A stretch of 53,472 nt of DNA from Planctomycetota bacterium (GCA_014384025.1 JACNGQ010000337.1:1-53472); one strand, 5' to 3'; shown: positions 13,276 through 38,756, numbered from the stretch's first letter. Notes: generated by a model not told the origin, from the letters alone. A program made the numbers and translations.

Positions 13276-15651
13276 TTAGAAGCCGAATGAACTCATCTGT
13301 TGTTGTATCAAAGATAGGTTTTTCTCAAGTCGGGCGAATCGACCTACCAATCTCTCTTCTCTTTTAGTAAGGAGAGTTTCTTCTCTGTCAATTTTATCCT
13401 GTAGAGCTTTTATTTGGTTGTCAACATGTTTCTGATCGATTTGAATTGATCCGGTTGTTACCTTGAGCATATTATCCAGCGCCTCCTCTATTGCACCGGC
13501 AAAGCCTTGTTTTACCATGACTGTAGCGTAAATAGTGCTGCTGGGTGTGCCCGTGGTAAGGGCGGTGAGTTGTAGGCTATGTTCGGGATATACGGGGTCA
13601 CTATTAGTATCGAAGGTGCTGTCTCCGGTAATAATATTGCCACTGATCATTGCTGCCCGATACTGAGAATCGTTTTCGCTTGAAAGTTTTATCGAAGCTG
13701 TGTCGATGTTACCACTTGCATCATACGTAACTTTGACCCTGTAGCTGCCTGCTGTGGTATAATCACTATGAGCGTCATAAAATTTGATAGTATTACTATC
13801 GCTGCTGCCGGTCTTGTCCGCTCCGATTAAGGCCAGCACACTCATATAATCTTCAGCTATCGCTTCATCGAAGACATTTGAGTCAAAACTCAGTATTCCT
13901 TCTCTATCGAGTTTTAAGCCGAGATGGCCCGGTGTCAGGAACGTATCGATATCTTCAATAAATCCGTTAGTCTGGGTGATAAGAGGTCTGCGAATTTGTT
14001 GTTTTATTGTCGAAACGACATAATCACCCATCAAGAGACCGGCGGTTTTTAGAGTATCGTTATAGCCGGTCTTTTCATGTATAAACTCGACGGCAAAATT
14101 ATAGCCATCAACCAGTTTGCCTATTTTATCTTTTACTGACTGGATATCTCGGGTTAAAGTTAGCTTTTCTCCATTGGCATCGGTTGTATCATGCAGGTGT
14201 AAAGCTACGCCGTAAATGACATCATCTACTGTATTGGAGCTTCTGCTGATGTAAGCATCGACACCCTTTGTGGTTTCTGTAACTCCGAGTGTTGGGCCGG
14301 CAAGCAAACTATCATCAGCCAAAATCATCGGAACATTGCCAAGAGTATCTTTGAATGTGAATATTACATCGCCGTCATCTATACCATTGCTGCCGGTTTC
14401 ACTAACTATTATATCGCCGGAATTAACATGCACCAATGCGTTGATAGCAGCTTGAATAACGTCCTTATTAGCATCAAAAGCTATGGCACTGGTTGTTTCA
14501 CCATTATAAGTTAAGGTATAGGTACCACCATCGGGATCGCCGGCTGTAAGAGTCAGCGTCTGTACCTCGGAAACGGCTGAAACTGTGGGATAACCATCGA
14601 CTTTAATCTTCGAGTCCTGAGCAGCCTGAGTTAAAGTAAAGTCTGATGTTGCGAAACCCGTGAGATTTGCTGTTGTGCTGCCGCCTTCCGTAGAAAAGGC
14701 CATGAACGGCGGGTTCAGACTCAGAGTAGCAGCAGAACCCTTGGCGTTGTAAGTCAGAATTATTGAAAGACTGCTTGTGCCGTCAGCGGTATCTGTAACG
14801 ATAATTTTGCCATTCTCAAAAGTGGCTTTGACATTATTATCAAAGGCATCTTCAATCTCTGCGATAATATGACTAATTTTGGTATTGTCAGTGAGGCTGA
14901 TATCTACCTGAGTTATGGAGTTACCAAAATGGTCAGTACCTGTTATTTCAATGACCTCGCCGCCTACAAGAGGATTGCTTCCGAATTGGTCAAGGTTCGT
15001 TATTTTTGTACTTAGTGTTGCATTATCGCTGTTGACTGTAAGTTCACTGTTAGCCTGCCATACTTCTGTGCTGCTGGCGTTGATGGAGATTTTGTAATCC
15101 GAGCCGGCATCATTACCGTTCATGACCATATGGTAGGCATCATTATAATATAGCAAGCTGGCTGTAATGCCGGGATTGTCTGCATCGTTATTGATTAGGT
15201 TGACCATATCTGTCAGGGTTGTAGTTGCTGTTGTTGTTATGGATGTTTCTTTATTGTTATATGAGTAAATAAAAGTGCCGGTACCCACATAATCCTCGGC
15301 GAATTTTTTGCCGGTCGCGTGAACAAATCGCTCGCCATTGGCCAACTGGTTGATTACAACATTGTGATTACCTTCGAAAGCGTTATAGGACGCGTTGGCG
15401 GTCAATTTATCTGTATCACTGGAGGCGACTGAAAAAGCACGAAGGGCATCGGCGTCGGAAAGAGCACGGACCGAGTTCCTTAGGTTTGTGAGTTTGGTTT
15501 CCAGAGTGCTCAGGGCATCCTGTCTTTCTTGCCACTTACTTATGCGCTCTTTGAACAGGTTTAGCGAACGACGCTCAATGGCCATCATTTGCTCGATGAG
15601 CTTACCTGTATCTATTCCTGTTGAAAGTCCTGGAAAACGTAAAGTTGACAT
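13276..15651 (-). CDS. fliD: Flagellar filament cap protein FliD
   Basis: FliD caps the growing filament and folds flagellin. The N-terminus (FPGLSTGIDTGKLIEQMM) and coiled coil are classic, as are the C-terminal FliD domain (DGYNFAVEFIHEKTG, GHLGLKLDREGILSFD) and the terminal coiled coil ending SLIQQQMSSFGF. At 791 residues it is longer than most. The middle contains surface modules, including one at residues about 361-465 that recurs in FlgE of this window. The ATG has AGGAAAAG directly upstream, and a sigma-28-like promoter lies about 90 bases before it. It is the last gene of the - strand block, downstream of the giant glycosyltransferase. Confidence 0.95.
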   Translation of the reverse strand: MSTLRFPGLSTGIDTGKLIEQMMAIERRSLNLFKERISKWQERQDALSTLETKLTNLRNSVRALSDADALRAFSVASSDTDKLTANASYNAFEGNHNVVINQLANGERFVHATGKKFAEDYVGTGTFIYSYNNKETSITTTATTTLTDMVNLINNDADNPGITASLLYYNDAYHMVMNGNDAGSDYKISINASSTEVWQANSELTVNSDNATLSTKITNLDQFGSNPLVGGEVIEITGTDHFGNSITQVDISLTDNTKISHIIAEIEDAFDNNVKATFENGKIIVTDTADGTSSLSIILTYNAKGSAATLSLNPPFMAFSTEGGSTTANLTGFATSDFTLTQAAQDSKIKVDGYPTVSAVSEVQTLTLTAGDPDGGTYTLTYNGETTSAIAFDANKDVIQAAINALVHVNSGDIIVSETGSNGIDDGDVIFTFKDTLGNVPMILADDSLLAGPTLGVTETTKGVDAYISRSSNTVDDVIYGVALHLHDTTDANGEKLTLTRDIQSVKDKIGKLVDGYNFAVEFIHEKTGYNDTLKTAGLLMGDYVVSTIKQQIRRPLITQTNGFIEDIDTFLTPGHLGLKLDREGILSFDSNVFDEAIAEDYMSVLALIGADKTGSSDSNTIKFYDAHSDYTTAGSYRVKVTYDASGNIDTASIKLSSENDSQYRAAMISGNIITGDSTFDTNSDPVYPEHSLQLTALTTGTPSSTIYATVMVKQGFAGAIEEALDNMLKVTTGSIQIDQKHVDNQIKALQDKIDREETLLTKREERLVGRFARLEKNLSLIQQQMSSFGF
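14257..14571 (-). repeat. Surface module in FliD shared with FlgE
   Basis: Codes for FliD residues about 361-465. By eye it aligns with FlgE residues about 273-370 (51434-51727). Shared features are a QT start, GGTYT/GGTFT, GETT/GQTT, IQAAINAL/IQAALEAL and a closing ETTKG. It is a protein-level repeat, not an obvious DNA repeat. Confidence 0.75.
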
Positions 15652-15801: not shown

Positions 15802-18800
15802 TTATATAGTAACAGCTTGCTGTGCTGTCTGTGCGTATCTGGCTCGTATGCTTTTAGACTTTTGCAATAGCTGCTGCAGGCCCTGATTTTTCGGGTCCAT
15901 TTTTATGCAATCATTTAGCTCAGAACAGGCCCGGTCGAAAGCTGTTCTTGAATATTCAAGAGCGTTTGACTTTATATACTCCTGTCCTAATGCAAGATAA
16001 GTCCCGGCAGTCAGACATTTAGCATGCAACTGCCTAATCCCGGGTGCTATTTGGTCCCAGGCAACATCCGGGAAGAGTTCATCGTATGTAAATGTGTCAG
16101 TAAATCGCTTGATGACCTCAAAATGACATTTAGCATTTTGAGAAGTGAAATTTCTTGAAAGACTATTGGGTGTCATTCTGCGCAGGTACAGGGCACCCGG
16201 TAAGTGTTGTATTTTCAGCCCCATTTCAACAAATCGCCTTATCATATCATAGTCTTCGGCCATCCGTAAGTTTTCATCGAAAAACCCGATTTTGTCGAAG
16301 ACGCTTCTTCTGATACAGGTTCTAAAGGGTACTACTGGAAAACCACAATGGAAAAGGTCTCTGATGAGCATTCTTGTATTTTTGTATTCGGGCCTTTTAA
16401 TCACTCGAATCGGTTTGGAGTTCTCGTCGATAAGATAGTCGTCGCAATACACCAGGTCAGCTTCAGGATGCACCTCGAATTCCTGTAAATGTTTGGCGAT
16501 GAAGTCCGGTGTCATCATGTCATCTGAATCAAGTTTGATTAGAAAAAGACCTTGAGAAGTTTTTATGCCCGTATTGTGGGCACCTGCAAGCCCCTTGTTT
16601 TTCTGGTAAAAGTATTTGATTTTATCGTTTTTGAAGCTGGCTACAATATCTTTGGTATTATCTGTGGAGCCGTCGTCAATGACAACAAGTTCGAAGTTTC
16701 GGTAGTTTTGAATTAGAACACTTTCGATCGCCTCTGCGATATATTCAGCAGCGTTGTAGGCCGGCATAATCACCGAAACCAAAGGATTGCTCTTGCTATG
16801 GTACAGAGGTATAACAGATATATACGGATTTCCGTATCGTTTGCCGACTATATATCTTTCGTATAAGCTGTGAATCTTTTTGCCATGTTCGATGCCGTTC
16901 TCATTATAATAATATAGGCCCAAAAACTCAGGTATATGTTTGAATTTGTATTTGCTTGAGATACGCAGCCAGAAATCCCAATCGCCCGCACAGGTCAAGG
17001 TGTCATCGAAATAGCCGAGTTCGGTGTGCAGTGGTTTGCGCCACATTGGCTGTGAACCAACACAACAACCGAAGATGAGTCTTTCGTGACTGTATTCAGG
17101 TCTTTTGGCCATATTGGTGGCATGATGATCGGCAAAGGTGCCGTTTGGCGTATCGGTATATACCTGGTCGCCATAGACAAGAGCTGCATCAGGATTGGCC
17201 AGCAGCATTTCGGCCATTATTTCCAGAGCATCATCACGGTGTCGATCATCTGTATTGGCATTAGTTAAAAAAGTCCCCCGAGCAACTTTGACGGCGCGGT
17301 TCCAGGCCGTATAAATTCCTTCTCGTCGCTCAGTTTTGATATAGACTATGTTATCGTATTTTTGCTGATATTCATGAACGATTGCTTCTTCATTTTCTTG
17401 TGAACCGCTGTTAACAACAATTATTTCCAGCTTATCTGCAATTGTCTGATGTTCCAAATCTTCCAGGCAGCCGCTTAGGAACTTCTCTGAGTTATAAGTT
17501 GAGATTATAGCAGAGACCAAATAGTTCTCCTCTGACTTAGCCGATACAATAGCTTTATTTTTTGTTACGGCTGGCATGGATGAGATTCTATCCAATGATC
17601 TCAGCACATTGCGAATTTCTGCTTTTTGCTCCTTGGCTAATGTCAAATTCGGATTATTCAACAAATCTGTATACACCTGTTTTAATTTGTCATATTGCTT
17701 GGCTTGCATATAACACTGTGCTAGTTGCGTGCATGTCTTTATGTAGCATTCAGATGTATCAACCTTCTCATCAAATTCAGGACTGACAAATTCATTATTA
17801 CCTCTCGTTACAGAGTTCTGCAACGATTCATATATTCTTTCCAGTAAGGGGAGAGCTTCGTCATATCTGCCAAAGCCAGTGTACAAAGAGCCAAGAATAT
17901 AGCAGCCTTTAAATCTTTCGGGCTTTAATACAACGGCTTTCTTGGCCCACTCTATAGCTTCTTCGGGAAAGGTGTTGGACAGGTATATTGCAATGTTTAT
18001 GATCCAAGAGTAGTCATTGTAGAAACTTTCAACAATATCTTTACTTCCAGGATACAAGCTATGAATATGTTCTTTATAACCGGTTAGATTGTTGTCCTTT
18101 CTCCATGCTAATCTTTCCATTTTTTCTTGCCGCAGTAATTTTTCAGTTTGGGCCGGACATTCAGAACGATGGTCGTGATAAACAATTACATCAGGAAAAT
18201 AGAGTATGCTTTGCATTTTTTCTTTCTGAGATTTGCATATTCTATATGAAAGCTCCATTCCTTCGGGGCCAAATAATAATTCATCAAAACCTCCCATTTT
18301 AACAAGAATATCTTTTCTAAATGCAGAAAGACAACTGACCTCGCAAGCGGTAGTTATAATCTGGTTGCCTAAATCATAATTAACGGGAATGTTTTCGGAA
18401 CCGGCTTGACTCTTTGGCAAAACCTTCCCTCTCAGGCCGGATATATTATGGTTTTTGAAATGTTCTACAATGTTCCTGACAAGGTCCTTGTCGGAAACGA
18501 CATCGTCATCAAGGAATGCTATATATTCGGCTTTAGCAAACTTAGTGCCTATGTTTCTTGCTGGCGATGGGCCAAAGTTGAAATTAAGCTCTACTCCGCA
18601 AAGCCCGAACTTGAATTCATCTTTGTGTTGTCTGAGCCAGGACAAATCCCCGCCATTATCCACGACGATTACTTCAAAGTCTTCCTCATTTTGTTCATTC
18701 AGGGCGTAGAGGTTTTCCAATAAGTCTTTGTGTCTGTTATAGGTTACTATGACGACCGTCAGTTTCGGTGAAAGACTTGTTCTGAAGTCCCAGTTCGCTT

Positions 18801-21800
18801 TAATGTTATTACACAGAGATATTTGTCTGTCTTTGAGCTTGGCTTTAGTGTTTTGTTTCCAGATATTAACTTCGGGCCGGTTGGAGAATACCGGATGTTC
18901 ACTTATCCCCGTCGCGCCAATCGTAATCTCTTCCTGAATGGCGTATTTGTGACACTTGTGAATAACCAACTCATTTTCCCAGTTCAGGAAGTCATCGTTG
19001 CTCTGGGAAATGGCCTCGGCACCGATGAACCGCTCTCCCAATACTTCGTTCAAGTAGAGAAAATCAAATTTTTGTGTTAGTCTGAACCAGAACTCGTAGT
19101 CTCCGCTTATTGTGAAACTTTCGTCGAAGTAGCCGAATACCTCATGCACATCCCTACGCCACATCGGCTGAGAGCCTGGAGGGCATTCTCCTTCAAATAA
19201 TCGGGCCCTTGAAAATTCGCCGTTTAACCTCTCGCCCACCACAACTCTTCGACCGTCTATCTCATTTACCTCTAATTGATTGGCGTAAACCAGTGCTTTG
19301 TCCGGATTTTCGTCCAGAGTTTTTGCCATTTTTTCCAGAGCATTTTCCCTATGCCTGTCATCCGTATTGGCGTTTGTAATATATTTACCTGTTGCGACTT
19401 TGATGGCTCTGTTCCAGGCCTTGTAAATAGTTTCACGTTCTTCTGTCCTGATATATTTTATATTGTCATACCTGCTCAGGAATTCCCGGACAATTGCCTC
19501 TTCATTTTGTTGTGAACCACTATTTACAATAATGATTTCCAGTTTTTCAGCAATGGTTTGTTTTTCCAAATCTTCCAGACATCCGCGGATGAAGCGTTCT
19601 GAATTGTATGTAGAAACAACAGCTGAGACTAAATATTCTGATTTGTTATCTGATTGCGGCACAATGAATTTATTTTCCTGAATATCAGTTGGAGATTTGC
19701 TTTGAATCTGTATGGCAGTGGCGGCATATTTTTTTGCAAAACTTATTATCTCTCTATCTCTGTCAACCTTGCCATGAAAATCTTGAAATTTAAATCCTTT
19801 GAACACGACTTCAAAATAGCGAACCAGTTCTTGAAGAGAATTAAACTCCCATCCGCTTGTATCTGTCCAATTACCTCCTATTGGTTTACTGCCATGTTCT
19901 TTCAACTTACATTCCAGTATAATTCTGTTGCACGTTTGCGCTATATTCTCAGTTATCTGTTTGAAATTTTTCACGTGATGAATTACTGAAAAAAGGCAAA
20001 TGGTATCATAGTTCGTTTCGATTTTCTCGGTGTCTAAATCCAGATATTTGAATTGGATGTCTTTGTTGAGAATATTGGCGACCATCTTGGCACCAATTAT
20101 AATCTTCCCGTCCATATCAATACCTGTTACCCTGCATCCTCTGTCATGCAGATAATGTCCAAGTAAACCCATATTACACCCAACATCCAGGATACTTTCA
20201 CCTTTTTTGAATTCAATAGTATTCAAAGCACTGAGTCTGGGATTCAAATCACGGGCACCGTCTATGTAAACTTTGTCCGTCCTCAAAGTGTGATAGATCC
20301 CGCTTTTTGTGTCGGTTGTTACTTGTTCTTTAAATAGCGTGGTTGCAGTTAGATTAAATGAATCGTTTTTAAACAGGCCGAAAATCTCATTTTTGTCATA
20401 TCCACCCCACTTGTAAAAATCAGTATGCCCGAATCTCTTCCATCTATCTGCAAAAAATTGGGCAAACCAGTCCAGATATTCAACGTTACCCATACGCACA
20501 AATCGCTCATCATATATTGCCTGGTCGTAATCAATTATGTAACAGACTGAATTACTGTCGAATATCAGGTTCTCTCTCTTTAAGTCACCTTCACAAATCC
20601 CAAAGTTTTTCTGTTCGAGTATGGAAAATAGCATATCGGCCGTATTGAATCCCCGTTGGTGTTCGACTCTTTCTTGTATGAAATATCGCTCACCGGTTTT
20701 CAGACTTCCTTCTGAGAGCAGTCTGGGACACGAGACACATTCTCTTGAGTTAAGATGCTTTATTATCTCAATCTCGTCTTGAAGCGATCGTAGTTTCAAT
20801 GGATGCTTTTCATGTTCAATTTTTATAATGTACTTGTCATTAAATCCTACCGAGTTGTTCAAATGTTTGGTTCTTTTAACATTTGTGAATATAAGACCAT
20901 CTACAACAATCTGGGTTTCCAAATGCTCTTTATGGTCCATTTCTCTGGTTTGACGTGCTTGGCTTTTGTGGCCGGGGAATGTCGCAGTTGATGAACTGGT
21001 TCGGGCCGTAGCTCGGGGTGAAGTTATCTGAGGTAACTCTACTTTGCGGCTTATTACAGAATGGGAACCTTGTTTGGGTGGAGAATCGTAAAAACTCCAA
21101 ACCTCTTGTGGAGTTATCATATTAAAAGGTGGCAGACGAAATTTGTCATTTTGTGGAAAATGCGTACTCCCATCCCCCATCCCACAATTGTAGATTACTC
21201 GTTTCCTTGTTTTCTTATGCACGAGCCCATGTATGGCTGTTACCAAGCAGGTGCAACCGTCCCAGCAGAAAAATGAAGCAATCACACGAACACAGTTACG
21301 ACCGGGCGTAACGTCAAGCCTCCTTATCACCTCTGGTGTCAAGTTCTGATGAACCCACCGAAGATAATCAGGCTCTGCCATAGCGAAACACCTCTTCATT
21401 TCTGCTAAAACCGGAAGCAGTTTCTCCCTCGTTGTGGCCCAACCCCATCCCTGAAAGCGCGTTATCGTTTCCCCTTCTGTCTCTGTGAGAAAATGATGGC
21501 CGTATACAGAATAGACCTCAGGGCGCGTCGCAATCTCATCAAGTGCCTGCTCAAATTCAGCGATTGCATTAGCAGTGGGGAAGCAATCATCTTCCAAAAC
21601 AATAATCCGTTTGTATCGTGATGACATAAAGCTGAGTCCATCTATCGTCAGCTTCTCTATCCCCATATTGCTGTTCATAGCTGTCAGGTGTACCTCTTGG
21701 AACTCTTTTTGTACAAGTTCTCTGCATTTTGTCGTTGGTTCTATAAATGAAGACCGCCCATGATGCCCATCCAGCCATACGTGAATGTCGTTGGTTGTAC

Positions 21801-23367
21801 CTTGCCGGCGCAAAGACTCAAGCAGATTCCGCAACAACAACGGCCTGGAGTGGCCGAAAACGATTATTCCAGTTCTTTTCCGTTTTGTATCGTCAATCTG
21901 TATGCTGTCCGATGCTGAACTGCGGTCAATCGGTTTCACTTGTACGTTTGTCGCTTTGTTATTGTTCTGCTCATATTCATTTATAGCTTTTTCTATTCGC
22001 TCAAGTAGCCTTTTAGCGCCATCGTGCTCTGGTTGGAGCTTTAGTTCTGCCTCGCAGGCTTGTCTGGCTGAGGCTATATCTCCAAGTTGAAAATAGGCGG
22101 TGGCGATTGCATAATTCAAATTGGGAATTCTCGAATAAAAGTGCTTTACTTGCTCAAGATGAGTCAGAGCTTCGGAAATTTTGCCTTCACTCAAGCTTGC
22201 AAGACCCGAAGAAAACAACTGATGCATATCACTCTTGCGGTAAATTTCCTGTGAAGCTTTGTGTTCCGGCTGTAATATCAGCTCCTCTATGGCGGCTCCC
22301 GAAGCTTCTTTTGTGCGCCCCAAACGTTTAAGATACACTGCCCGTAGGTAATTGATATTCTTGTACTTATGCTCGGCCAGTGCGATATTATCCAGCATCT
22401 TTAATGCTTTACTAAAATCACCGGCTTGTATTAGTGAATCTGCCTTGTCACATAAATGGCTCACAGCTTTTGTTTCCAGAGCCAAATGCAAAAGGATTAA
22501 ATGCGGTTCCGGATTTTCCGGAAAAGATGAGTGTGCTCTCTCAAGAGCCAATAGATAATCTTTCGTGACTTTTTCTTTCTTTCCTGTAAAAGATTTTGCT
22601 AACCTCTCAGCTTCTTTGACGCTTTGCTGATACCCAAGACAATCCTGTGGATATATGGCTTTAAGTAGCAGATTAGCATCCTCAAGTCGCTTATCCATCA
22701 GATTGTTAAAAAAACGATTCCAGAACGGTAAGTTCTTAAGCCGAGGAGTCTTACCTATGTTGCCGCCGATAGCTTCTGTGCCGATTTCTATCTTTGTTTT
22801 CCTCTGCACCATCTGTGAAACCTGGTCCAGCCACGTATCATCATACCAAAAGGGAAAAAACTCCGTAAATATTTTTCCTGTTACATTTGTCCACTGGGCA
22901 CTTAGAATGGTTATAGTTACCTGCTCGGGACCCGAATGCGGATCAGGGATATAACCCAGCACTATCCCATCGGAATATCGATTAAATGTATCTCTTATAG
23001 CACCATCCCAATTGTTGCTCGTTAAAATATAGTCATCTACAAAAGTCATATAAATGCCGGGATTTGTTGTGCACTTTTGCCTCAGTATATTAGCCATCTG
23101 ACCCATGCTGAGGGTTCTTTCTCCGAGCACCCAGTTTATCTTGAATGGATATTTAAGGTACGCTTTCGAGCTGATGTACTCATTAGTGATGTCATCATCG
23201 TTATCCACATAAATCCATACATCTATACCATCGGCGTTGCCAACGGTGCGCCCGATAGAGTCAAATACCTTATCCAGATACTCAGGTCTGCCTCGAGTGG
23301 CTATCAATAAACTAATGTGCTGTGGCTTATCAATCGGTTTTATAATTTTGGACAAGTCATTTTGCAT
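15802..23367 (-). CDS. Giant multidomain glycosyltransferase (about 2520 aa)
   Basis: The frame opens at a GTG at 23394 (2530 residues; residue numbers use that start). ATG 23367, with GGGA 8 bases upstream, is the likelier start. Order: GT-A-like 1 (about 26-235; SLLIATRGRPEYL, TFVDDYIL); TPRs (290-470); GT 2 (507-760; GIIVFGHSRPLLLRN, VLEDDCFPT); a kinase-like fold (830-960) with GDLKRENLIF and IIDYDQA; a SAM methyltransferase (1050-1215; ILDVGCNMGLLG); GT2-family 3 (1254-1480); GT 4 (1545-1770; VVIVTYNRHKDLLEN, FLDDDV); TPRs (1790-1940); GT 5 (1957-2195); GT 6 (2204-2410; VSVIMPAYNAAEYI, DDGSTDNT); a C-terminal helical repeat region. Modules 3 and 5 are near duplicates. No signal peptide or membrane helix is seen, so it is cytoplasmic. 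Likely role: building and attaching a multi-sugar glycan to flagellar subunits bound by the TPRs. The function is inferred. Confidence 0.9.
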   Translation of the reverse strand: MQNDLSKIIKPIDKPQHISLLIATRGRPEYLDKVFDSIGRTVGNADGIDVWIYVDNDDDITNEYISSKAYLKYPFKINWVLGERTLSMGQMANILRQKCTTNPGIYMTFVDDYILTSNNWDGAIRDTFNRYSDGIVLGYIPDPHSGPEQVTITILSAQWTNVTGKIFTEFFPFWYDDTWLDQVSQMVQRKTKIEIGTEAIGGNIGKTPRLKNLPFWNRFFNNLMDKRLEDANLLLKAIYPQDCLGYQQSVKEAERLAKSFTGKKEKVTKDYLLALERAHSSFPENPEPHLILLHLALETKAVSHLCDKADSLIQAGDFSKALKMLDNIALAEHKYKNINYLRAVYLKRLGRTKEASGAAIEELILQPEHKASQEIYRKSDMHQLFSSGLASLSEGKISEALTHLEQVKHFYSRIPNLNYAIATAYFQLGDIASARQACEAELKLQPEHDGAKRLLERIEKAINEYEQNNNKATNVQVKPIDRSSASDSIQIDDTKRKRTGIIVFGHSRPLLLRNLLESLRRQGTTNDIHVWLDGHHGRSSFIEPTTKCRELVQKEFQEVHLTAMNSNMGIEKLTIDGLSFMSSRYKRIIVLEDDCFPTANAIAEFEQALDEIATRPEVYSVYGHHFLTETEGETITRFQGWGWATTREKLLPVLAEMKRCFAMAEPDYLRWVHQNLTPEVIRRLDVTPGRNCVRVIASFFCWDGCTCLVTAIHGLVHKKTRKRVIYNCGMGDGSTHFPQNDKFRLPPFNMITPQEVWSFYDSPPKQGSHSVISRKVELPQITSPRATARTSSSTATFPGHKSQARQTREMDHKEHLETQIVVDGLIFTNVKRTKHLNNSVGFNDKYIIKIEHEKHPLKLRSLQDEIEIIKHLNSRECVSCPRLLSEGSLKTGERYFIQERVEHQRGFNTADMLFSILEQKNFGICEGDLKRENLIFDSNSVCYIIDYDQAIYDERFVRMGNVEYLDWFAQFFADRWKRFGHTDFYKWGGYDKNEIFGLFKNDSFNLTATTLFKEQVTTDTKSGIYHTLRTDKVYIDGARDLNPRLSALNTIEFKKGESILDVGCNMGLLGHYLHDRGCRVTGIDMDGKIIIGAKMVANILNKDIQFKYLDLDTEKIETNYDTICLFSVIHHVKNFKQITENIAQTCNRIILECKLKEHGSKPIGGNWTDTSGWEFNSLQELVRYFEVVFKGFKFQDFHGKVDRDREIISFAKKYAATAIQIQSKSPTDIQENKFIVPQSDNKSEYLVSAVVSTYNSERFIRGCLEDLEKQTIAEKLEIIIVNSGSQQNEEAIVREFLSRYDNIKYIRTEERETIYKAWNRAIKVATGKYITNANTDDRHRENALEKMAKTLDENPDKALVYANQLEVNEIDGRRVVVGERLNGEFSRARLFEGECPPGSQPMWRRDVHEVFGYFDESFTISGDYEFWFRLTQKFDFLYLNEVLGERFIGAEAISQSNDDFLNWENELVIHKCHKYAIQEEITIGATGISEHPVFSNRPEVNIWKQNTKAKLKDRQISLCNNIKANWDFRTSLSPKLTVVIVTYNRHKDLLENLYALNEQNEEDFEVIVVDNGGDLSWLRQHKDEFKFGLCGVELNFNFGPSPARNIGTKFAKAEYIAFLDDDVVSDKDLVRNIVEHFKNHNISGLRGKVLPKSQAGSENIPVNYDLGNQIITTACEVSCLSAFRKDILVKMGGFDELLFGPEGMELSYRICKSQKEKMQSILYFPDVIVYHDHRSECPAQTEKLLRQEKMERLAWRKDNNLTGYKEHIHSLYPGSKDIVESFYNDYSWIINIAIYLSNTFPEEAIEWAKKAVVLKPERFKGCYILGSLYTGFGRYDEALPLLERIYESLQNSVTRGNNEFVSPEFDEKVDTSECYIKTCTQLAQCYMQAKQYDKLKQVYTDLLNNPNLTLAKEQKAEIRNVLRSLDRISSMPAVTKNKAIVSAKSEENYLVSAIISTYNSEKFLSGCLEDLEHQTIADKLEIIVVNSGSQENEEAIVHEYQQKYDNIVYIKTERREGIYTAWNRAVKVARGTFLTNANTDDRHRDDALEIMAEMLLANPDAALVYGDQVYTDTPNGTFADHHATNMAKRPEYSHERLIFGCCVGSQPMWRKPLHTELGYFDDTLTCAGDWDFWLRISSKYKFKHIPEFLGLYYYNENGIEHGKKIHSLYERYIVGKRYGNPYISVIPLYHSKSNPLVSVIMPAYNAAEYIAEAIESVLIQNYRNFELVVIDDGSTDNTKDIVASFKNDKIKYFYQKNKGLAGAHNTGIKTSQGLFLIKLDSDDMMTPDFIAKHLQEFEVHPEADLVYCDDYLIDENSKPIRVIKRPEYKNTRMLIRDLFHCGFPVVPFRTCIRRSVFDKIGFFDENLRMAEDYDMIRRFVEMGLKIQHLPGALYLRRMTPNSLSRNFTSQNAKCHFEVIKRFTDTFTYDELFPDVAWDQIAPGIRQLHAKCLTAGTYLALGQEYIKSNALEYSRTAFDRACSELNDCIKMDPKNQGLQQLLQKSKSIRARYAQTAQQAVTI
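16855..17526 (-). repeat. Internal glycosyltransferase duplication, copy B
   Basis: Codes for GT module 5 (residues about 1957-2180), the near duplicate of module 3. The two are separated by GT module 4 and a TPR stretch, so a simple tandem duplication is not enough to explain the arrangement. Confidence 0.85.
18955..19635 (-). repeat. Internal glycosyltransferase duplication, copy A
   Basis: Codes for GT module 3 of the giant protein (residues about 1254-1480). It shares CLEDLE, VNSGSQ, NANTDDRHR and GSQPMWR with the module at 16855-17526. The first 120 residues are about 70% identical by eye. Confidence 0.85.
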
Positions 23368-23421
23368 GTTTTTTCCCATAAAACTAAGAACCACTGTTGA
23401 GGTTTCATCAAGCTTTGGTCC

Positions 23422-24195
23422 TTAAATCTCGATTTCGTTTTTATTAAAATTTTGAGCAAGCGCAATTTTGCCGGCAAAGTATTCCTTTCCCCATTCATAT
23501 CGTTTGGGGGTTCCTATATCAATCAACTCCTCACGACTGACAAAAGCGAAACTGTCCAGATTGGTCAAGCTTGGAAAAAGGTCATATTCCAGAGAATATT
23601 TCGTATTTTCAGGAATCAAAGAAAGAATGTTCTTCTGGAAAAGATAAATTCCCGCGTTAATATAGCCGGTTCTGGCTTTTGCTTTTTTTTCTTCGAAGCT
23701 GATAATTCTCTGTAAGCTGTCTAATGTAACCAGGCCGCTGTTGGCTGTTTCTTCAGATTCGACTACTGCCATTGACATCAAGGCCTGTCTTGATAAATGA
23801 GAATCGTAAAAATCAGCTAGGTCCACCGGACAAAATGAATCACCGTTGGTGACAAGAAACGGCTCGCTCTGTATAAATTTTTCTGCATTCTTGATAGAAC
23901 CGGCGGTTCCAAGTGGGATTTGCTCATTAGAAACGATGAACTCAAGAGAACCTTTTTTGTGGCTGTAATGCTCCTGTATTACTTCTGACATATGGCCGGT
24001 GCACAGCACAAAACGACTGAAGCCGAATCCGCAGAAATAATCTATCAGGATATCAAGAAACGGCTGTTGGTTTATCTGGGCCATTGGCTTGGGACGGTCA
24101 TCAACAATCGCTCGAAGCCGGCTCCCAATGCCGCCGCAGAGTATCACTACATCAACTTCTTTGAGTTTGTTTTCAATAAGGTTCCTGGTTTGCAT
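23422..24195 (-). CDS. hddC: HddC-like sugar-1-phosphate nucleotidyltransferase
   Basis: 257-residue nucleotidyltransferase that activates a sugar 1-phosphate with GTP or another NTP. The pyrophosphorylase signature ILCGGIGSRLRAIVDDRPKPM starts near residue 18. It is followed by GTAGSIKNAEKF and the metal-site NGDSF motif. The closest family I recognise is D-glycero-alpha-D-manno-heptose 1-phosphate guanylyltransferase. It overlaps the end of the HddA-like kinase gene by 23 bases, the pairing known from GDP-heptose clusters. Substrate assignment comes from family and neighbour context. A related hexose-1-phosphate is possible. Confidence 0.8.
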   Translation of the reverse strand: MQTRNLIENKLKEVDVVILCGGIGSRLRAIVDDRPKPMAQINQQPFLDILIDYFCGFGFSRFVLCTGHMSEVIQEHYSHKKGSLEFIVSNEQIPLGTAGSIKNAEKFIQSEPFLVTNGDSFCPVDLADFYDSHLSRQALMSMAVVESEETANSGLVTLDSLQRIISFEEKKAKARTGYINAGIYLFQKNILSLIPENTKYSLEYDLFPSLTNLDSFAFVSREELIDIGTPKRYEWGKEYFAGKIALAQNFNKNEIEI

Positions 24196-25171
24196 ATAAA
24201 GTAATCTGACTTCCTAATGTCTCAAAATGGATGGGAACATACAAGAGTGTCTTCAAGGCTTTTCTAACCATTCGCTGCTTGCGAGGCGGTACGAACAAGA
24301 GCATAAATCCACCGCCTCCGGCGCCACATAATTTTCCACCAATGGCGCCGGCCTTGATGGCGGTGTCATAGATTTCTTCTATTGCGTTTGTGGTTATTCT
24401 GCTCGATAAACTTTTCTTTAGTTTCCATGATTCGTTGAGAAGCTTTCCGAAACTTTCTATTTCTTCACTACTATTGTTTAGGATACTAATCCCTTCTTCA
24501 GCCATCTCCTTCATAGTCCGCAGTTCGGCGGTTTTCGATGAGGTATTCTGAATCTGTTCGCAGGCAATTTCAGATGCGGTCCTGGAGAAGCCGGTAAAAA
24601 AGAACATCAGGTGGTTTTGGAGTTCTGTTATCTTTTTCTGGTTTACGGTTACCGGCTGGACAAAGAAGTTTTCCTTGCCATTGAATTCCATCCTGTTAAG
24701 TCCCCCGAAGGAAGCCGTAACATGGTCTTGTGAACCTACATGTTCTCCTATGACGTCCTGCTCAATATAGATTGCATTCGAGGCAAGCTGCCTTTTACCA
24801 ACCATCCGGCCTGTTAATGCGTACAGTGTATTCAAAAAACCAACGGTGAAAGCCGAGCTGGAACCAATCCCCGACCGTGCGGGCAGGTCGCTGGTATGCA
24901 CCATCTCGATTCCTTGGTCTATCTTCATAAACCTCAGGCACTCCCGCACCGAAAGATGCTTTATTTCCGAAAGATTGTTTACCTCCTCACGTAATCTGTA
25001 TCTAATCAGATACTTATGTTTGAAAAACGGCGGCAAAAACCGGCAACTTATATAGCAATATTTATCGATAGTTGTATTCAGTACTACTCCACCGTTTTCC
25101 CTGTACCAGATTGGATAATCTGTACCTCCCCCGAAGAACGATATGCGAAATGGCGTTCTACTGATAATCAT
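24173..25171 (-). CDS. hddA: HddA-like GHMP sugar kinase
   Basis: GHMP-family kinase of about 332 residues, like D-glycero-D-manno-heptose 7-phosphate kinase, which makes heptose 1,7-bisphosphate. The N-terminus MIISRTPFRISFFGGGTDYP is typical. The ATP loop is PARSGIGSSSAFTVGFL, and the third GHMP motif is GGKLCGAGGGGFMLLF. The frame is open to 25309, but ATG 25171 fits the family start and has AAGGA 5 bases upstream. Substrate specificity is inferred. GmhA- and GmhB-like steps are not in the window. Confidence 0.83.
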   Translation of the reverse strand: MIISRTPFRISFFGGGTDYPIWYRENGGVVLNTTIDKYCYISCRFLPPFFKHKYLIRYRLREEVNNLSEIKHLSVRECLRFMKIDQGIEMVHTSDLPARSGIGSSSAFTVGFLNTLYALTGRMVGKRQLASNAIYIEQDVIGEHVGSQDHVTASFGGLNRMEFNGKENFFVQPVTVNQKKITELQNHLMFFFTGFSRTASEIACEQIQNTSSKTAELRTMKEMAEEGISILNNSSEEIESFGKLLNESWKLKKSLSSRITTNAIEEIYDTAIKAGAIGGKLCGAGGGGFMLLFVPPRKQRMVRKALKTLLYVPIHFETLGSQITLYANQEPY

Positions 25172-25286
25172 AAATATCCTTGTTACTTTGCCCTTTACTT
25201 TACTACATACGTTCTCTACGATTTCTAAGTATACAGCAAATTCTGTGCCTACGGCTAAAAAGGCATTTTGAGCGGTTTTACTACTT

Positions 25287-25345
25287 AAACCGGCAATTTT
25301 TGCGGCCAAAACCGGTATATTCTGCAGCTAAAACCGGCAAATTTG
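25287..25345. repeat. Three imperfect 21-22-bp direct repeats
   Basis: Copies beginning near 25287, 25308 and 25330 share an AAAACCGG(C/T)A(A/T)ATT core separated by GC(G/A)GC-type linkers. They lie in the 295-base gap between the GT-A-like gene and the hddA start. No binding protein can be named. The rest of this gap shows no gene I can support. Confidence 0.55.
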
Positions 25346-25459: not shown

Positions 25460-25480
25460 CGGCAATCTAGCCGCTTGCCG
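25460..25480 (-). terminator. Weak hairpin at the end of the GT-A-like gene
   Basis: CGGCAA and TTGCCG form a 6-bp stem with a 9-base loop, overlapping the stop codon at 25467. On the - strand it is followed by GGGCTTTATAAAAAT, which is only partly U-rich. It could attenuate transcription before the 295-base gap. Confidence 0.25.
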
Positions 25481-26828
25481 TTGCCTTAATATTTTCTGCT
25501 TTTTCCCGTACCTGCAAACTGTTCGTTTTTATTCCTTCAAAAGTCGTCGCTTTTTTGGGAATGTATCCGTACAGGGTAGCCGCTAACGAATACTGGGTTG
25601 CGAGAGATTCGCAAATTCCACTGGAAAGGTTGGCGAATAACTCATTTGCGAAAGCCGACTCACTTGGAGCATAAAAATCACAAGAAATATATTCCACTAA
25701 TTCGTCCACCAATCCTTCTCCGGCCTTAGTCAGTCCCAACAATTCATTCTGAAATCCAAGATGATTCTTAAACATGTCGCATAAAATTGCGTGAGCTTTC
25801 TCCAAATCATCAAAGTAAGCTCTTTCTATCTGGGTAGGGGATATGTTTATCCATGTTTCAGCAAGCTTTCTTTTTGCACGAATGAGATTTGCCAATACTG
25901 GTGGCCATACCAAATATTTCTGGTCCCTATTAACTGAATCAATAATACTGTTGAGCCAGTTGGTAACAGATAATTTATAAGAGAAAGAATTCGAAAGATT
26001 AGATTGCGAATGTTCTTTGATTAATATTTTCTTGGCTGACTTGTCATCTCTAATCTGAAAATTTGATAATCCTTTTTCTCTCGCCCAGATGTATGCATTT
26101 AATCTTTGAGCGAGGCGATATATATTTTCCTGGCTGCCTATGAACAACAATTTTGCATAAAATGCATGAATTCTGCGTAGTTTTTGTTCCCACTGTTTTG
26201 TTGACAATCCATAACCTGCACTGACAGTCTTCTCTAAGTTAACAAATTCAATATCGTTAATAGGAACGCTTCTTGTCTGTCCACATTTGTTTTTCAGGTA
26301 ATAGTGTACGAACTCCATACCTGTATCTGCCGCCCCTCGCCCAAAGCCTTCAGTCAGATGCAACCAGTTTTTAGTGAAAAAGCCAAGATGCTCTCCAGAG
26401 GGGCAGCAATCCACCAAACTGCACTTTCGATGTCTGTTCCCACTCACTCTCAGATAAAAAACATCGTCAGGGAACAGTCCGCGATATTTGCGAACAACAC
26501 TGTCCCAGCCCTTCGTTGCAAATCTGATCTCGTCATTAGGTACCCACACAAAATAAGTTTCCTCCGATATTATTTTTAATAGGTCATTTAAGGCAAGATA
26601 GATACTCCAGTAGCCATCAAGTTTTGGAGTTACAATATATCTGATCGAAAAAGGTCTGCGATGCTTCTCCATTTCCATGTAATCAATCATCTCTTGATGG
26701 TCATCATCCACCTTAACTAAAACCTCGAATGAGTCCATATTGTTTCCTGTCGATTCAAGATTATCGAATAGACCGCATAGCTTTTCTTTGTGTATCGATG
26801 CAGTAATTATGGAAACTAATTTAACCAT
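25467..26828 (-). CDS. Putative GT-A-like glycosyltransferase
   Basis: 453-residue protein. The N-terminal 220 residues resemble a GT-A nucleotide-sugar fold: it starts VKLVSIITASIHKEKLCGLF, has an acidic VKVDDDHQEM segment near residue 40 and a second acidic VPNDEIRFA near 100. The C-terminal half is helical and not recognised. RBS AAGGAG lies about 10 bases before the ATG. No signal peptide is seen. Context (heptose activation downstream, RmlC-like epimerase upstream) suggests it transfers one of the locally made sugars. Donor and acceptor are unknown. Confidence 0.7.
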   Translation of the reverse strand: MVKLVSIITASIHKEKLCGLFDNLESTGNNMDSFEVLVKVDDDHQEMIDYMEMEKHRRPFSIRYIVTPKLDGYWSIYLALNDLLKIISEETYFVWVPNDEIRFATKGWDSVVRKYRGLFPDDVFYLRVSGNRHRKCSLVDCCPSGEHLGFFTKNWLHLTEGFGRGAADTGMEFVHYYLKNKCGQTRSVPINDIEFVNLEKTVSAGYGLSTKQWEQKLRRIHAFYAKLLFIGSQENIYRLAQRLNAYIWAREKGLSNFQIRDDKSAKKILIKEHSQSNLSNSFSYKLSVTNWLNSIIDSVNRDQKYLVWPPVLANLIRAKRKLAETWINISPTQIERAYFDDLEKAHAILCDMFKNHLGFQNELLGLTKAGEGLVDELVEYISCDFYAPSESAFANELFANLSSGICESLATQYSLAATLYGYIPKKATTFEGIKTNSLQVREKAENIKATASG

Positions 26829-26915
26829 CCTACAATTTCTCCTTCTTTAATGATTTACCAGCCTGACAGTCTCACGACTTTTAAAAAATTGCTGAAGTAA
26901 ATCATATGTTATTGT

Positions 26916-27443
26916 TTAGTCATCCCTTTGCGATAATATCGGTTTCTCTATCGGCCACCAGATATTCAGCCGGGAATCGTCATATTTATATGTAAACTGT
27001 TTCGAACGATCATAATATGTCGATTGTTTATAATGAAAGATGGTCATATCACTTAAGACCAGATGGGCATTCCCGTACTTTGGAGGTACCAGCACCTGCA
27101 GCCGGTTCTTATCTGATAAAACAAAAGACTGCCATTTGCCGAAATATTTTGATTTGGTATCGCAGTTGACAACTACAAGATAAAATCTGCCGTACAAACA
27201 GGATATCAATTTCCATGTACAGTCATCACCGTGAATACCTCGCAATACGTTTTTGGTGGATACTGAAATGTCATCCTGGACAAACTTTATTTCAATCCCT
27301 TTTTCCTTGTACAGTGCCTTGTTGTATGTCTCGATATATTCTCCGCGGTGGTCTTCAAAAACATACGGCTTAATCAACAAGACTCCACCAAGTTCAGTTT
27401 CCGATACTTCTAATTTTACTTTGCAAAATAGTTCTTTTTGCAT
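26916..27443 (-). CDS. RmlC-like nucleotide-sugar 3,5-epimerase
   Basis: 175-residue cupin of the dTDP-4-dehydrorhamnose 3,5-epimerase family. Typical elements are FEDHRGEYIETYN, FVQDDISVSTKNVLRGIHGD with the catalytic His, a KLISCLYGRFYLVVVNCD strand, VPPKYGNAHLVLSD and a late YKYDDSRLNIWWP. Such enzymes act on 4-keto-6-deoxy sugars, including GDP-heptose intermediates in Campylobacter-type pathways. The reading HGDDCTW after the catalytic His, instead of HYQ, suggests a specificity unlike classical RmlC. The activity is inferred from the fold and from the nearby Gmd-like dehydratase. Confidence 0.82.
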   Translation of the reverse strand: MQKELFCKVKLEVSETELGGVLLIKPYVFEDHRGEYIETYNKALYKEKGIEIKFVQDDISVSTKNVLRGIHGDDCTWKLISCLYGRFYLVVVNCDTKSKYFGKWQSFVLSDKNRLQVLVPPKYGNAHLVLSDMTIFHYKQSTYYDRSKQFTYKYDDSRLNIWWPIEKPILSQRDD

Positions 27444-27462
27444 TGATATTCGTCCTTGTTAT

Positions 27463-28791
27463 TCACACAGCTTTCAACTCGTCGAAACGCGAATATGCTT
27501 CATCTTGATAACTGATAAGGTTCTCGTCTGAAACTTCAGACAGGTTAATTGCGACACTATCGTAGTAATTAAGCTTCTCCATCTGCTCAAAGCTCGTGGG
27601 ATCTACAAGCCCTCTTCTCACTGCCAGGTTATAGACCTTCGTGCCTGGATAGGGTGCAAGGATCATAAACTTGGACTGGTTGGCGTCAAGTTCGAAAGCG
27701 AAGTCTATCGTCTCTTTTATAGTCTCATGGGTATCGCCCGGCAAACCAATGATATAACTGGCTATTACGGGCAGCGATGCCTCTTTCATAATCTCCACAG
27801 CACGTCTTAGCTGTGCCTTGGTCTCCTTTTTTCCGATTCTCTTCAGTATTTCGTCATTACCACTTTCAACACCAATAGCCGCAAAAGAACACCCTGAATC
27901 TCTGAGGACTGCAGCAAGGTCTTCAGAGAGTGAATCGGCACGTATCTGGACGGTGTAATTTATATTAATCCTTTCTTCAATTATGCTGTTGCAAATGGCT
28001 ATAGCTCTTTTCTTGTTAGATGCAAATGAGTCGTCCCAGAACATTAAGTTGTTTATGTCAAGCACGTTAACGATATGGCGAATTTCTTCCATTACATTTT
28101 CTACAGATCTTAATCTGAGCTTCCTCCTCCACGTAACACATGACGCACAGAAACTGCAATCGTAAGGACAACCTCTTCCTGAAAACATAGCGAGATGGTT
28201 ACCTTCGAAATATGCCGGGTCAAGATATTCTTTAAGTTCCATAAGATCCCATGCGGGAAAATGCAACTCATCAAGGTTTCTTATAAATGGACGAACTTCA
28301 TTGACTTTAGTGGTGCCATTGTCTCTATAAACTAGGTTTTTTACAGCCGATACTGTGTGTCCTTTTTCCAAAGTATTAAGAAGCTCAAGAAGTGCTTCTT
28401 CACCCTCTCCGATTATTCCGAACGAGATACCATCATAAATAGTGGTCTGAGGAGAACCTGTTACGTGAGGACCGCCTACGATGATGACAACTTCCGGTTT
28501 CAATTGTTTTATCTGCTGTGCCATTCTTACAACTGTCGGATATCTCGGCGTGAGAGTTGTGATACAAACGTACTTGGGTGATTCCGCTAATACAATATCG
28601 GCCATCTCTGCTGGAGATAAGGCCTCCTTTGTTTCCAAATCGACGAGTGAACACTCATAATCCCCTCTTTCCCGTATAAAAGAAGCGAGAAGCGAAATGT
28701 TTAAGGGGCAACGTATTACTCCTTGTTTTTTCCACTGGCTCGACTTTTGGAGATTAGGGGGTCTTACGAATACTACCTTTTCACTAATCAC
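27463..28791 (-). CDS. B12-binding-domain radical SAM protein
   Basis: About 442 residues. An N-terminal cobalamin-binding-type Rossmann domain (CSLVDLETKEALS, VVIIVGGPHVTGSP, GIIGEGEEALLELL) is followed by a radical SAM domain with the iron-sulfur motif CPYDCSFC (GRGCPYDCSFCASC). Members of this family do methylations, cyclisations or rearrangements at unreactive carbons, sometimes on sugars. The frame is open from a TTG at 28800. GTG 28791 is the better start because AGAGGA lies 9 bases upstream. It overlaps the preceding SDR gene. The substrate is unknown; a nucleotide sugar or glycan is plausible from context. Confidence 0.85.
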   Translation of the reverse strand: MISEKVVFVRPPNLQKSSQWKKQGVIRCPLNISLLASFIRERGDYECSLVDLETKEALSPAEMADIVLAESPKYVCITTLTPRYPTVVRMAQQIKQLKPEVVIIVGGPHVTGSPQTTIYDGISFGIIGEGEEALLELLNTLEKGHTVSAVKNLVYRDNGTTKVNEVRPFIRNLDELHFPAWDLMELKEYLDPAYFEGNHLAMFSGRGCPYDCSFCASCVTWRRKLRLRSVENVMEEIRHIVNVLDINNLMFWDDSFASNKKRAIAICNSIIEERININYTVQIRADSLSEDLAAVLRDSGCSFAAIGVESGNDEILKRIGKKETKAQLRRAVEIMKEASLPVIASYIIGLPGDTHETIKETIDFAFELDANQSKFMILAPYPGTKVYNLAVRRGLVDPTSFEQMEKLNYYDSVAINLSEVSDENLISYQDEAYSRFDELKAV

Positions 28792-28796
28792 GATAA

Positions 28797-29810
28797 TCAA
28801 TCCTCTGAAATTACACTATATCTTTTTATTGTTTTGGAATTATTTGTACTGTACCATTTCATTGTTTTTTCAATACCGTCATCAAGGCTCACCTTTGGTG
28901 ACCATCCGAGCATGGATTTGGCTTGCTGTATACTTGTGACCCTGTATTTCTCTCCTACAGGCTTAGTTATGTCCCATTTGATATCTATCTTTTTGTCGAG
29001 TATCCGTTCAGCGTGCTGAACGATTGTCTCGGCTACGGTTTTGATGGTCATGGGTTCTCCGCTTCCGACATTTAACGGAGGGAGCTCTTTTTTTTCAATC
29101 ATTAGTATCATGAAATCAGCTACATCATCGGCAAAGACAAAATCCCTGATTGCAGTGCCATCACCCCATACAGTCAAAGGATTTTCACCCTCAAGTACAC
29201 GGTATATAAGTGACGGGATGATCAAGGCCGATGTGCTATTGAAGTTATCATAAGGACCATATGTATTGCCAGGACGAACTGTCAAGAAATTCCTGATATC
29301 ATACTGAAGTTTATAAGCCTGAATCTGCAATTCACCGACAAGTTTTGAAATGCCGCCGAATCTATCTGAAGGGTGGGGAAGCCCTGAAAAGGCATTTTCC
29401 TCTTCAAAAACTCGCGCTGGTGGGTAAATACATACGCTGCTTGTATATAAAAAACGCTCTACCTGAGCGTTCCTTGCAGTTTCCATTATCTGGATATTCA
29501 TCAAAATATTTTTAAGCAAAAGCGTGGATGCCTTTGTGTAAGCTACACCTATTCCTCCCTTAATTCCCGCAAGATGAAACACTATGTCAATATCTTTTAA
29601 TACTCTCTCGCAGATCCCCTTTTCACAAATATCACCCTTTACGAACTCTATGTTGTCTTTAAAAGGTGAGTGGTCATCAAGGCTTACTGCTCTCACATTT
29701 GCCCCCATTTTGTCTAATTTTCTTACAAGGGGAATTCCTATAAGCCCGGTTCCGCCAGTAACCAGGACATTTCTGCCGGAAAAGCTTTTTAAAACTTTCT
29801 CCTGAATCAT
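28797..29810 (-). CDS. SDR-family NAD-dependent sugar epimerase/reductase A
   Basis: 337-residue extended short-chain dehydrogenase resembling GDP-fucose synthase and GDP-mannose epimerases. The NAD-binding loop is GGTGLIG near residue 20. The SSVCIYPPARVFEEE and VRPGNTYGPYDNFN segments are family-typical, as is the DFVFADDVADF motif. The catalytic YxxxK is altered: the sequence reads RFGGISK, placing Gly where Tyr is expected. RBS AAGGA precedes the ATG. It overlaps the start region of the radical SAM gene. It could use a displaced residue, or act as an epimerase or partner subunit. Confidence 0.85.
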   Translation of the reverse strand: MIQEKVLKSFSGRNVLVTGGTGLIGIPLVRKLDKMGANVRAVSLDDHSPFKDNIEFVKGDICEKGICERVLKDIDIVFHLAGIKGGIGVAYTKASTLLLKNILMNIQIMETARNAQVERFLYTSSVCIYPPARVFEEENAFSGLPHPSDRFGGISKLVGELQIQAYKLQYDIRNFLTVRPGNTYGPYDNFNSTSALIIPSLIYRVLEGENPLTVWGDGTAIRDFVFADDVADFMILMIEKKELPPLNVGSGEPMTIKTVAETIVQHAERILDKKIDIKWDITKPVGEKYRVTSIQQAKSMLGWSPKVSLDDGIEKTMKWYSTNNSKTIKRYSVISED

Positions 29811-29835
29811 ACTTTAGTTCCTTGTTTTTTGATTT

Positions 29836-30801
29836 TCAAAGAGGTCTCCATATTATCAACGAGGCCTCATGAATAATTCCGCCCAGGAAAGGACGGTATG
29901 CCTGGAGAATTTCTATTTTGTTTTGCTTTTCAAGTTCCCGCAAAGCTGTCATATAGCCGGAAAGATAATTCCTTTTACTTGAATAGAGCAACGCCAGATA
30001 ATCGAGCAAATTATCCTCGTCATAAAATTCCAAAATCGGCTCATAATTAACCACAATATCAGGTTTGGCTGCTATGATAAAAGATAGCAGCTTATCATGC
30101 TTTTCGCCCAATTGTTCGAGAGAATGTATGGTTGTCACAGCGCTATTGGGCTTCAAGACAATGTCCGGCGAAGGATTAAGCATATCGAAAATAAAGCCCT
30201 CAATATTTCTATCCAGAGTTTCGGATAATTTTTGTGCAATTTTTACGGATGGTTCCACCCAATCCAGCCCATAAAGCCTTTTTGAGGGAAACATATCGGA
30301 CAGCATCAGCAGGTTCTGGCAACTGCCGCATCCAAACTCGTAGATGTTTTCATATTCGCAAAGGTATTTACTGAAGATGATGTATCTTGAAAGAACGAAT
30401 AAGTCGTATTCAATATCATTGTTTTCAGGGATTATCAGTTTATTATCATATCGAAAGAATTGGCTCCCACGAAAGTACTTAGCTTTTAATATTTCTAAAT
30501 CTATTCCACTTTGAAGTATCGATTGCAGGTTTTCATCCCATCCTTTGTTCCAGGCCTGAAAGTTTTCTTCCATGGACCGAGCAACCTCTGGCGTATTTAG
30601 GAGCTTCAGAATATAGAGTATGTATTCGGCTAACTCCTTTTTGTCTGCTTCGTGGTAACTTGTGTTCACCCGGTCAATTCCTGATAAGAACTGTTCGGGC
30701 AACTGGTCATAGTGAATTTTGAACATACGGGAAAAATCTTCCCGCTCGATTATTCTTTTTTCAACCATCTGTTTTCCAGAAATCAAGTTCAAATATTTCA
30801 T
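29836..30801 (-). CDS. SAM-dependent methyltransferase-like protein
   Basis: About 321 residues. A helical N-terminal region (1-150) precedes a class I methyltransferase fold with motif I EFGCGSCQNLLML near residue 158 and the acidic end of strand 2 in LYGLDWVEPS. The C-terminal part ends SLIIWRPL. The frame is open from a TTG at 30804. The ATG at 30801 overlaps the stop of the upstream SDR gene (TGATG) and has no separate ribosome site, so translation is probably coupled. Presumably it methylates a sugar of the flagellar glycan. The substrate is not determinable. Confidence 0.7.
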   Translation of the reverse strand: MKYLNLISGKQMVEKRIIEREDFSRMFKIHYDQLPEQFLSGIDRVNTSYHEADKKELAEYILYILKLLNTPEVARSMEENFQAWNKGWDENLQSILQSGIDLEILKAKYFRGSQFFRYDNKLIIPENNDIEYDLFVLSRYIIFSKYLCEYENIYEFGCGSCQNLLMLSDMFPSKRLYGLDWVEPSVKIAQKLSETLDRNIEGFIFDMLNPSPDIVLKPNSAVTTIHSLEQLGEKHDKLLSFIIAAKPDIVVNYEPILEFYDEDNLLDYLALLYSSKRNYLSGYMTALRELEKQNKIEILQAYRPFLGGIIHEASLIIWRPL

Positions 30802-35141: not shown

Positions 35142-35142
35142 C

Positions 35143-38720: not shown

Positions 38721-38756
38721 TCCAGAATTACCTGATATTTTCTGAAAAACTAAAAA

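Follow-up and report, generated by a model that had tools for sequence, protein, structure and literature searches.

A single-chain, multi-module glycosyltransferase encoded beside fliD in a Planctomycetota flagellar locus

Fused glycosyltransferases in described systems and in the new locus

Several described enzymes join a glycosyltransferase (GT) to other modules on one polypeptide, and they are the closest known counterparts of the gene product analysed here, a 2530-residue chain encoded in a flagellar locus of a Planctomycetota bacterium (GCA_014384025.1, JACNGQ010000337.1:1-53472; this whole stretch of 53,472 nucleotides is referred to as the window). The chain, hereafter the giant, joins six GT-like modules, two TPR blocks, an APH-type kinase and a methyltransferase, and its N-terminal modules differ between relatives that share its C-terminal end. 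The flagellin glycosyltransferase FgtA of Pseudomonas aeruginosa PAO1 (PA1091, of the PA1088-PA1091 cluster) is likewise a GT2 enzyme fused to a phosphotransferase domain, in a pathway that includes methylation (PMC11833859, PMC10714395), but it combines one GT2 with a TagF-like phosphotransferase, whereas the giant has many GT modules, a kinase of APH type, a methyltransferase of its own and TPR blocks. The Clostridium difficile type B flagellin GT2 (CDR20291_0242) has a fused methyltransferase domain, and both the transfer and the methylation of rhamnose have been proposed for it (PMC5207246); unlike the giant it consists of one GT and one methyltransferase, with neither kinase nor TPR described.

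Kinase and methyltransferase share a polypeptide in Klebsiella O7 ORF6, which also has two GT2 modules, and in Escherichia coli O9a WbdD, both of which cap glycans with methyl-phosphate (PMC11231755, PMC3482155). These are O-antigen systems with a coiled-coil ruler and with the methyltransferase before the kinase, whereas in the giant the kinase comes first. Because only the methyltransferase half of the giant's pair matches WbdD (E 1e-4), with no match for the kinase, and because the domain order is reversed, we do not claim membership of the WbdD family.

Caulobacter FlmG, which binds flagellin via its TPR domain and carries out TPR-guided O-glycosylation of flagellin in the cytoplasm (PMC7591256), has TPR and glycosyltransferase in one chain, as does the giant. 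However, FlmG is a 596-residue protein with a single GT-B domain, and since every GT in the giant is of GT2 or GT-A-like type, the giant is not filed as an FlmG member. Finally, A111/114R of Chlorovirus PBCV-1 is a single polypeptide with several GT domains that have been assigned to sugars of a common glycan core (PMC7826918); it is a three-domain enzyme of a viral N-glycan, without a kinase, and the text consulted describes no cassette exchange. Each pairwise fusion thus has a known precedent, in FgtA, the C. difficile type B enzyme, Klebsiella O7, FlmG and the three-GT A111/114R. The open-access papers searched describe neither a six-GT chain that also carries kinase, methyltransferase and TPRs nor a cassette-swapping family of such chains at a single flagellar site, in keeping with an initial annotation, made from the sequence, that knew of no described flagellin glycosyltransferase of this architecture.

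Architecture of the chain and exchange of its modules

The same annotation had described one uninterrupted frame of GT-like, TPR, kinase-like and methyltransferase modules just upstream of fliD, and the description holds. The open reading frame (ORF) on the minus strand is open for 2530 codons, has zero internal stops and lies 150 bp upstream of fliD. Translation could start at the GTG at 23394 or at an ATG at codon 10; the ATG is the likelier start, as it is preceded by a Shine-Dalgarno-like GGGA and the alignment with the homologue in a related genome (G022; genomes compared are cited by number) begins there. The modules run in the order GT-TPR-GT-kinase-methyltransferase-GT-GT-TPR-GT-GT-tail (Table 1). 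The GT modules M3 to M6 score above the Pfam GT2 cut-off and carry an acidic DXD-type motif; M1 and M2 fall short of the Pfam cut-offs and are called GT-A-like from weak hhalign matches to a GT2 profile built from relatives, against which TPR, kinase and methyltransferase controls score <1%. Acidic DD/DXD motifs are retained in all six. M3 and M5 are 54% identical and represent an internal duplication. M1 shares 62% identity with the N-terminal end of the giant in G022, and TPR block a 46% with the TPR parts of separate TPR-GT proteins of G005 and G001; for M2 no homologue was found within the order and no match in a search of the PDB. The kinase motifs (beta3 Lys, GDLKRxN and DYD) are kept in all three known copies of the kinase-methyltransferase pair, including those of G059 and G073; an alignment-free structure prediction of the pair reached a mean pLDDT of only 32. 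The Maf family is absent among the matches listed (the best 25 of 39 Pfam families and of 63 NCBIfam families), and another family accounts for every module.

The fliD neighbourhoods of about 35 related genomes were compared, and in about 25 of them, from the same order, a multi-GT ORF precedes fliD and shares its strand. It is usually directly adjacent, with one intervening gene in G025 and G028. Complete giants range from 935 to 3706 residues, some other ORFs being cut by contig ends, and their Pfam modules are all glycan-building or glycan-modifying. The M6-tail cassette forms the C-terminal end of 16 ORFs (one of them a short remnant in G006), mostly at 45-82% identity, and in a sample of 392 genomes across the phylum the full-length cassette is confined to the same order. 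A second, mutually related C-terminal module ends the giants of G018, G026, G027, G032, G007, G050, G054 and G042 and the second giant of G046. A scan of genome contigs returned one weak Clostridia locus, and the viral contigs searched gave no useful match. In G006, whose genome is a single contig, only the C-terminal remnant (tail) stands before fliD, and the giant sits 112 kb off, followed by a fliD fragment; both places (L078 17001-17909, L079 49-956) carry a 909-bp inverted repeat, 90% identical.

The clearest case of exchange is G005, a sister species of the same genus. Its 2674-residue ORF occupies the same place, and its last 1282 residues are 82% identical to the window giant, with no match before residue 1240; the N-terminal part instead holds a pyruvyltransferase, a different methyltransferase and a GT9. 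The G022 giant matches at its N-terminus, with 62% identity over residues 10-371, and is divergent beyond. In G002 a radical-SAM/B12-GT2 cassette lies between the M5-like and M6 modules, 68-73% identical to near-N-terminal stretches of the G009, G025 and G008 giants, and heptosyltransferase, FkbM and capsule-type modules are likewise among those exchanged in the N-terminal parts of relatives. Of the 21 homology boundaries inside the window protein, 17 lie clear of the GT and kinase-methyltransferase cores (71% of the protein), with clusters at residues 810-827, 1247-1249, 1930-1961 and 2177-2202. At the level of sequence, these alignments show a C-terminal half that is conserved as a cassette, joined to an N-terminal half that is exchanged by whole modules, a division out of reach of the initial annotation.

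Synonymous divergence (pS) along the half in common with G005 is uneven, at 0.58-0.76 over residues 1249-1568, 0.12-0.22 over 1569-1808, 0.46-0.62 over 2209-2448 and 0.04 over 2449-2528. In contrast, G050 and G054 have a whole 2381-residue giant in common, 87% identical, with a dS of 0.27-0.52 throughout. We read the unevenness as segment recombination. In both comparisons dN/dS is about 0.2, indicating that the chain is under purifying selection. As the genome is metagenome-assembled, in 448 contigs with 4.39% estimated contamination, a chimeric assembly or a decaying gene was considered, and is hardly credible: independent giants occur in relatives, including the single-contig genome G022, the frame has no stops, and the C-terminal half is selected. 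An assembly artefact is largely ruled out by the G005 ORF at the same place together with the giant common to G050 and G054.

The flagellar locus and the link to flagellin

The minus-strand order is flgK, flgL, TPR-GT1, GT2-TPR, TPR protein, sugar-nucleotide and tailoring genes, HddA-like, HddC-like, giant and fliD (Table 1). GT and nucleotide-sugar genes hence lie inside a flagellar hook/filament locus, as in a flagellin glycosylation island, and the position is the same in relatives. Among 20 loci with both borders, the GT2-TPR protein (37113) is present in 11/11 with a giant and 0/9 without (Fisher 6e-6, kinship ignored). The flagellins of the giant-bearing genome sit on other contigs (C203, C81, C106). 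Weak matches to SBP_bac_10 (PF07596) in this genome also point to Planctomycetota.

Flagellin length differs between most loci with and without a giant. In 23 of 23 counted, giant-bearing genomes have flagellins 269-284 residues long, without the middle (outer-domain) region, whereas in 6 of 8 loci without a giant they have 411-436 residues (some lengths are open-frame lengths; Fisher 3.8e-5, kinship ignored). Both kinds of locus are present in G001. The long flagellins of G001 (contig C208), G037, G059 and G073 are flanked by TPR-GT41 OGTs, and in G059 and G073 the kinase-methyltransferase pair, which only three genomes out of 161 in the order carry, is fused to such an OGT at a distance of one or a few genes from the flagellin gene. 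Together with the place beside fliD, the flagellin-linked pair and the short-flagellin association support the connection with flagellar glycosylation made in the initial annotation.

Two alternative targets bear on these data. The modules themselves would suit an enzyme that builds lipopolysaccharide or exopolysaccharide and sits in a flagellar locus incidentally, given that O-antigen and capsule loci often contain GT2, GT9, capsule-type GT, pyruvyltransferase and kinase-methyltransferase modules and that the Klebsiella O7 methyltransferase-kinase is fused to GT2 modules (PMC11231755). The recurrent place beside fliD and the association with flagellin length make this very unlikely. Axial proteins other than flagellin (FliD, FlgK, FlgL) are a somewhat better alternative, though still an unlikely one: the giant is bordered by flgL and fliD, with flagellin elsewhere, and the FliD middle is fast-evolving within the same genus, but the association is with the length of flagellin, and it is flagellin-linked OGTs that carry the kinase-methyltransferase pair. 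Moreover, the flagellin glycosylation genes of P. aeruginosa also sit just after flgL.

Horizontal transfer of the pair had been suggested by the low identity of FliD between G000 and G059 (41%). Identity alone is no proof of transfer, since FlhB, FliP and FliR (63-70% identical) are no less similar than the pair itself (64-69%); the remaining hints are the patchy distribution of the pair and its differing fusion partners.

Other features of these loci are recorded here. In G073 (L150, L145) about nine TPR or TPR-GT41 proteins follow one flagellin gene in a row, the last bearing the kinase-methyltransferase pair, and G056, a genome without a giant, has three short flagellins in tandem (L198 9042-12173). 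The TPR protein at 36484-37122 occurs in 20/20 flgL-fliD loci, even those without any glycosyltransferase; it was rejected as a FliS substitute, FliS being encoded elsewhere. A reading of 40518-41693 as flagellin was also rejected, the product being FlgL by TIGR02550, and a Ser/Thr comparison of this protein gave a null result. Residues 357-464 of FliD match a stretch (51434-51742) inside a large FlgE-like protein at 38%, and the FliD of many relatives aligns in two pieces around them; the stretch looks like an inserted domain common to FliD and FlgE. Within the island, a split transketolase pair (31747-33409) has a similar counterpart in the G029 island, and a B12-dependent radical SAM protein stands alone at 27463-28800, radical-SAM/B12 modules being fused into the giant in G002 and G008.

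Table 1. Features of the flagellar locus and modules of the giant
Feature	Residues	Position	Strand	Remarks
fliD		13276..15651	-	directly downstream of the giant
Giant glycosyltransferase ORF	1-2530	15802..23394	-	2530 aa, or 2521 aa with the likelier ATG start
M1, divergent GT-A-like	20-262	22609..23337	-	hhalign to GT2 profile 80%, E 1.3e-5; Pfam GT2 E 0.067
TPR block a	263-490	21925..22608	-	Pfam TPR_16, TPR_19 above cut-off
M2, divergent GT-A-like	505-800	20995..21882	-	hhalign 86%, E 5e-6; Pfam Mannosyl_trans3 E 0.016
APH-type kinase	822-1020	20335..20931	-	Pfam APH 28.6 bits when searched alone, cut-off 23.2
Class I SAM methyltransferase	1021-1235	19690..20334	-	Pfam Methyltransf_12/23/25/11 above cut-off; DVGCNMG motif
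M3, GT2	1253-1520	18835..19638	-	Pfam
M4, GT2	1540-1790	18025..18777	-	Pfam and profile match
TPR block b	1791-1945	17560..18024	-	Pfam TPR_7, TPR_8, TPR_2
M5, GT2	1955-2198	16801..17532	-	Pfam
Conserved C-terminal cassette	2199-2530	15805..16800	-	M6 GT2 (2199-2445) and tail CT (2446-2530)
HddC-like nucleotidyltransferase and HddA-like GHMP kinase		23422..25309	-	matches below NCBIfam cut-offs
Island cargo		25467..36162	-	GT-like protein, rmlC-like, B12-radical SAM, four NAD-dependent epimerase/dehydratase-type genes, methyltransferases, split transketolase pair
Conserved island core		36484..40319	-	TPR protein (36484), GT2-TPR protein (37113), TPR-GT1 protein (38757)
flgL		40518..41693	-	other border of the island; TIGR02550 185.9 bits, cut-off 127.2

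Proposed function and its implications

The combined results suggest that the gene product is probably a cytoplasmic multi-module glycosyltransferase that decorates a protein of the flagellar filament prior to its export, the short flagellins being the likeliest target. This proposal draws on the position upstream of fliD in about 25 relatives, the glycan-type modules, the pair in flagellin-linked OGTs, the association with flagellin length and the purifying selection. Several points weigh against it: flagellin is a putative target, the giant adjoins fliD and flgL and not flagellin, and the flagellins of G055 and G056 are short although these loci have no giant. The folds of M1 and M2, moreover, hang on the weak profile matches, and an alignment-free model of M1-TPR-M2 had a mean pLDDT of 43.

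In the proposed pathway, glycosylation would occur in the cytoplasm, by analogy with Aeromonas, where flagellin is glycosylated before export (PMC4065374), and the TPR blocks may dock the acceptor in the manner of FlmG, whose TPR domain binds flagellin. Possibly together with the GT2-TPR protein (37113) that co-occurs with the giant, the C-terminal cassette would perform the invariant step, either acceptor recognition or addition of the first sugar, and the interchangeable upstream modules would lengthen the glycan. The kinase-methyltransferase pair would add phosphate and methyl, possibly as a methyl-phosphate cap like those made by WbdD or Klebsiella O7 ORF6.

The initial annotation had viewed the giant as a single-chain machine that builds a multi-sugar, phosphorylated and methylated glycan on a TPR-bound subunit. 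That interpretation is partly supported; the ordered line, the TPR binding of a flagellar subunit, the phosphorylation of a sugar and the choice of flagellin over FliD, FlgK or FlgL are putative. The giant could instead be a set of independently acting enzymes on one polypeptide, or be cleaved after translation, so that module order carries no information. This would be compatible with a flagellar target and competes only with the assembly-line part, and we consider it a serious possibility, if short of an even chance. Module order and number vary freely among relatives, and some of the machinery is on separate proteins (37113, 38757; four ORFs in G018). The counter-evidence, that about 25 genomes have fused giants and that one of these was kept intact between G050 and G054, is not decisive.

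Returning to the decoration of filament protein by the giant, a bolder and rather doubtful extension is that the glycan is assembled on a single chain by shuffled cassettes, with a logic like that of a modular polyketide synthase. A C-terminal docking or priming cassette would stay at a fixed site while recombining N-terminal GT and tailoring cassettes set the filament glycan, in bacteria whose flagellins lack outer domains. If this is right, flagellar glycan diversity in the order would come from domain swaps within one gene and not from gene swaps within an island, and the giants would amount to a natural collection of recombined multi-GT proteins in which to ask if the order of modules dictates the order of sugars. 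That giants go with short flagellins suggests a trade in which glycan replaces the outer protein domains of the filament.

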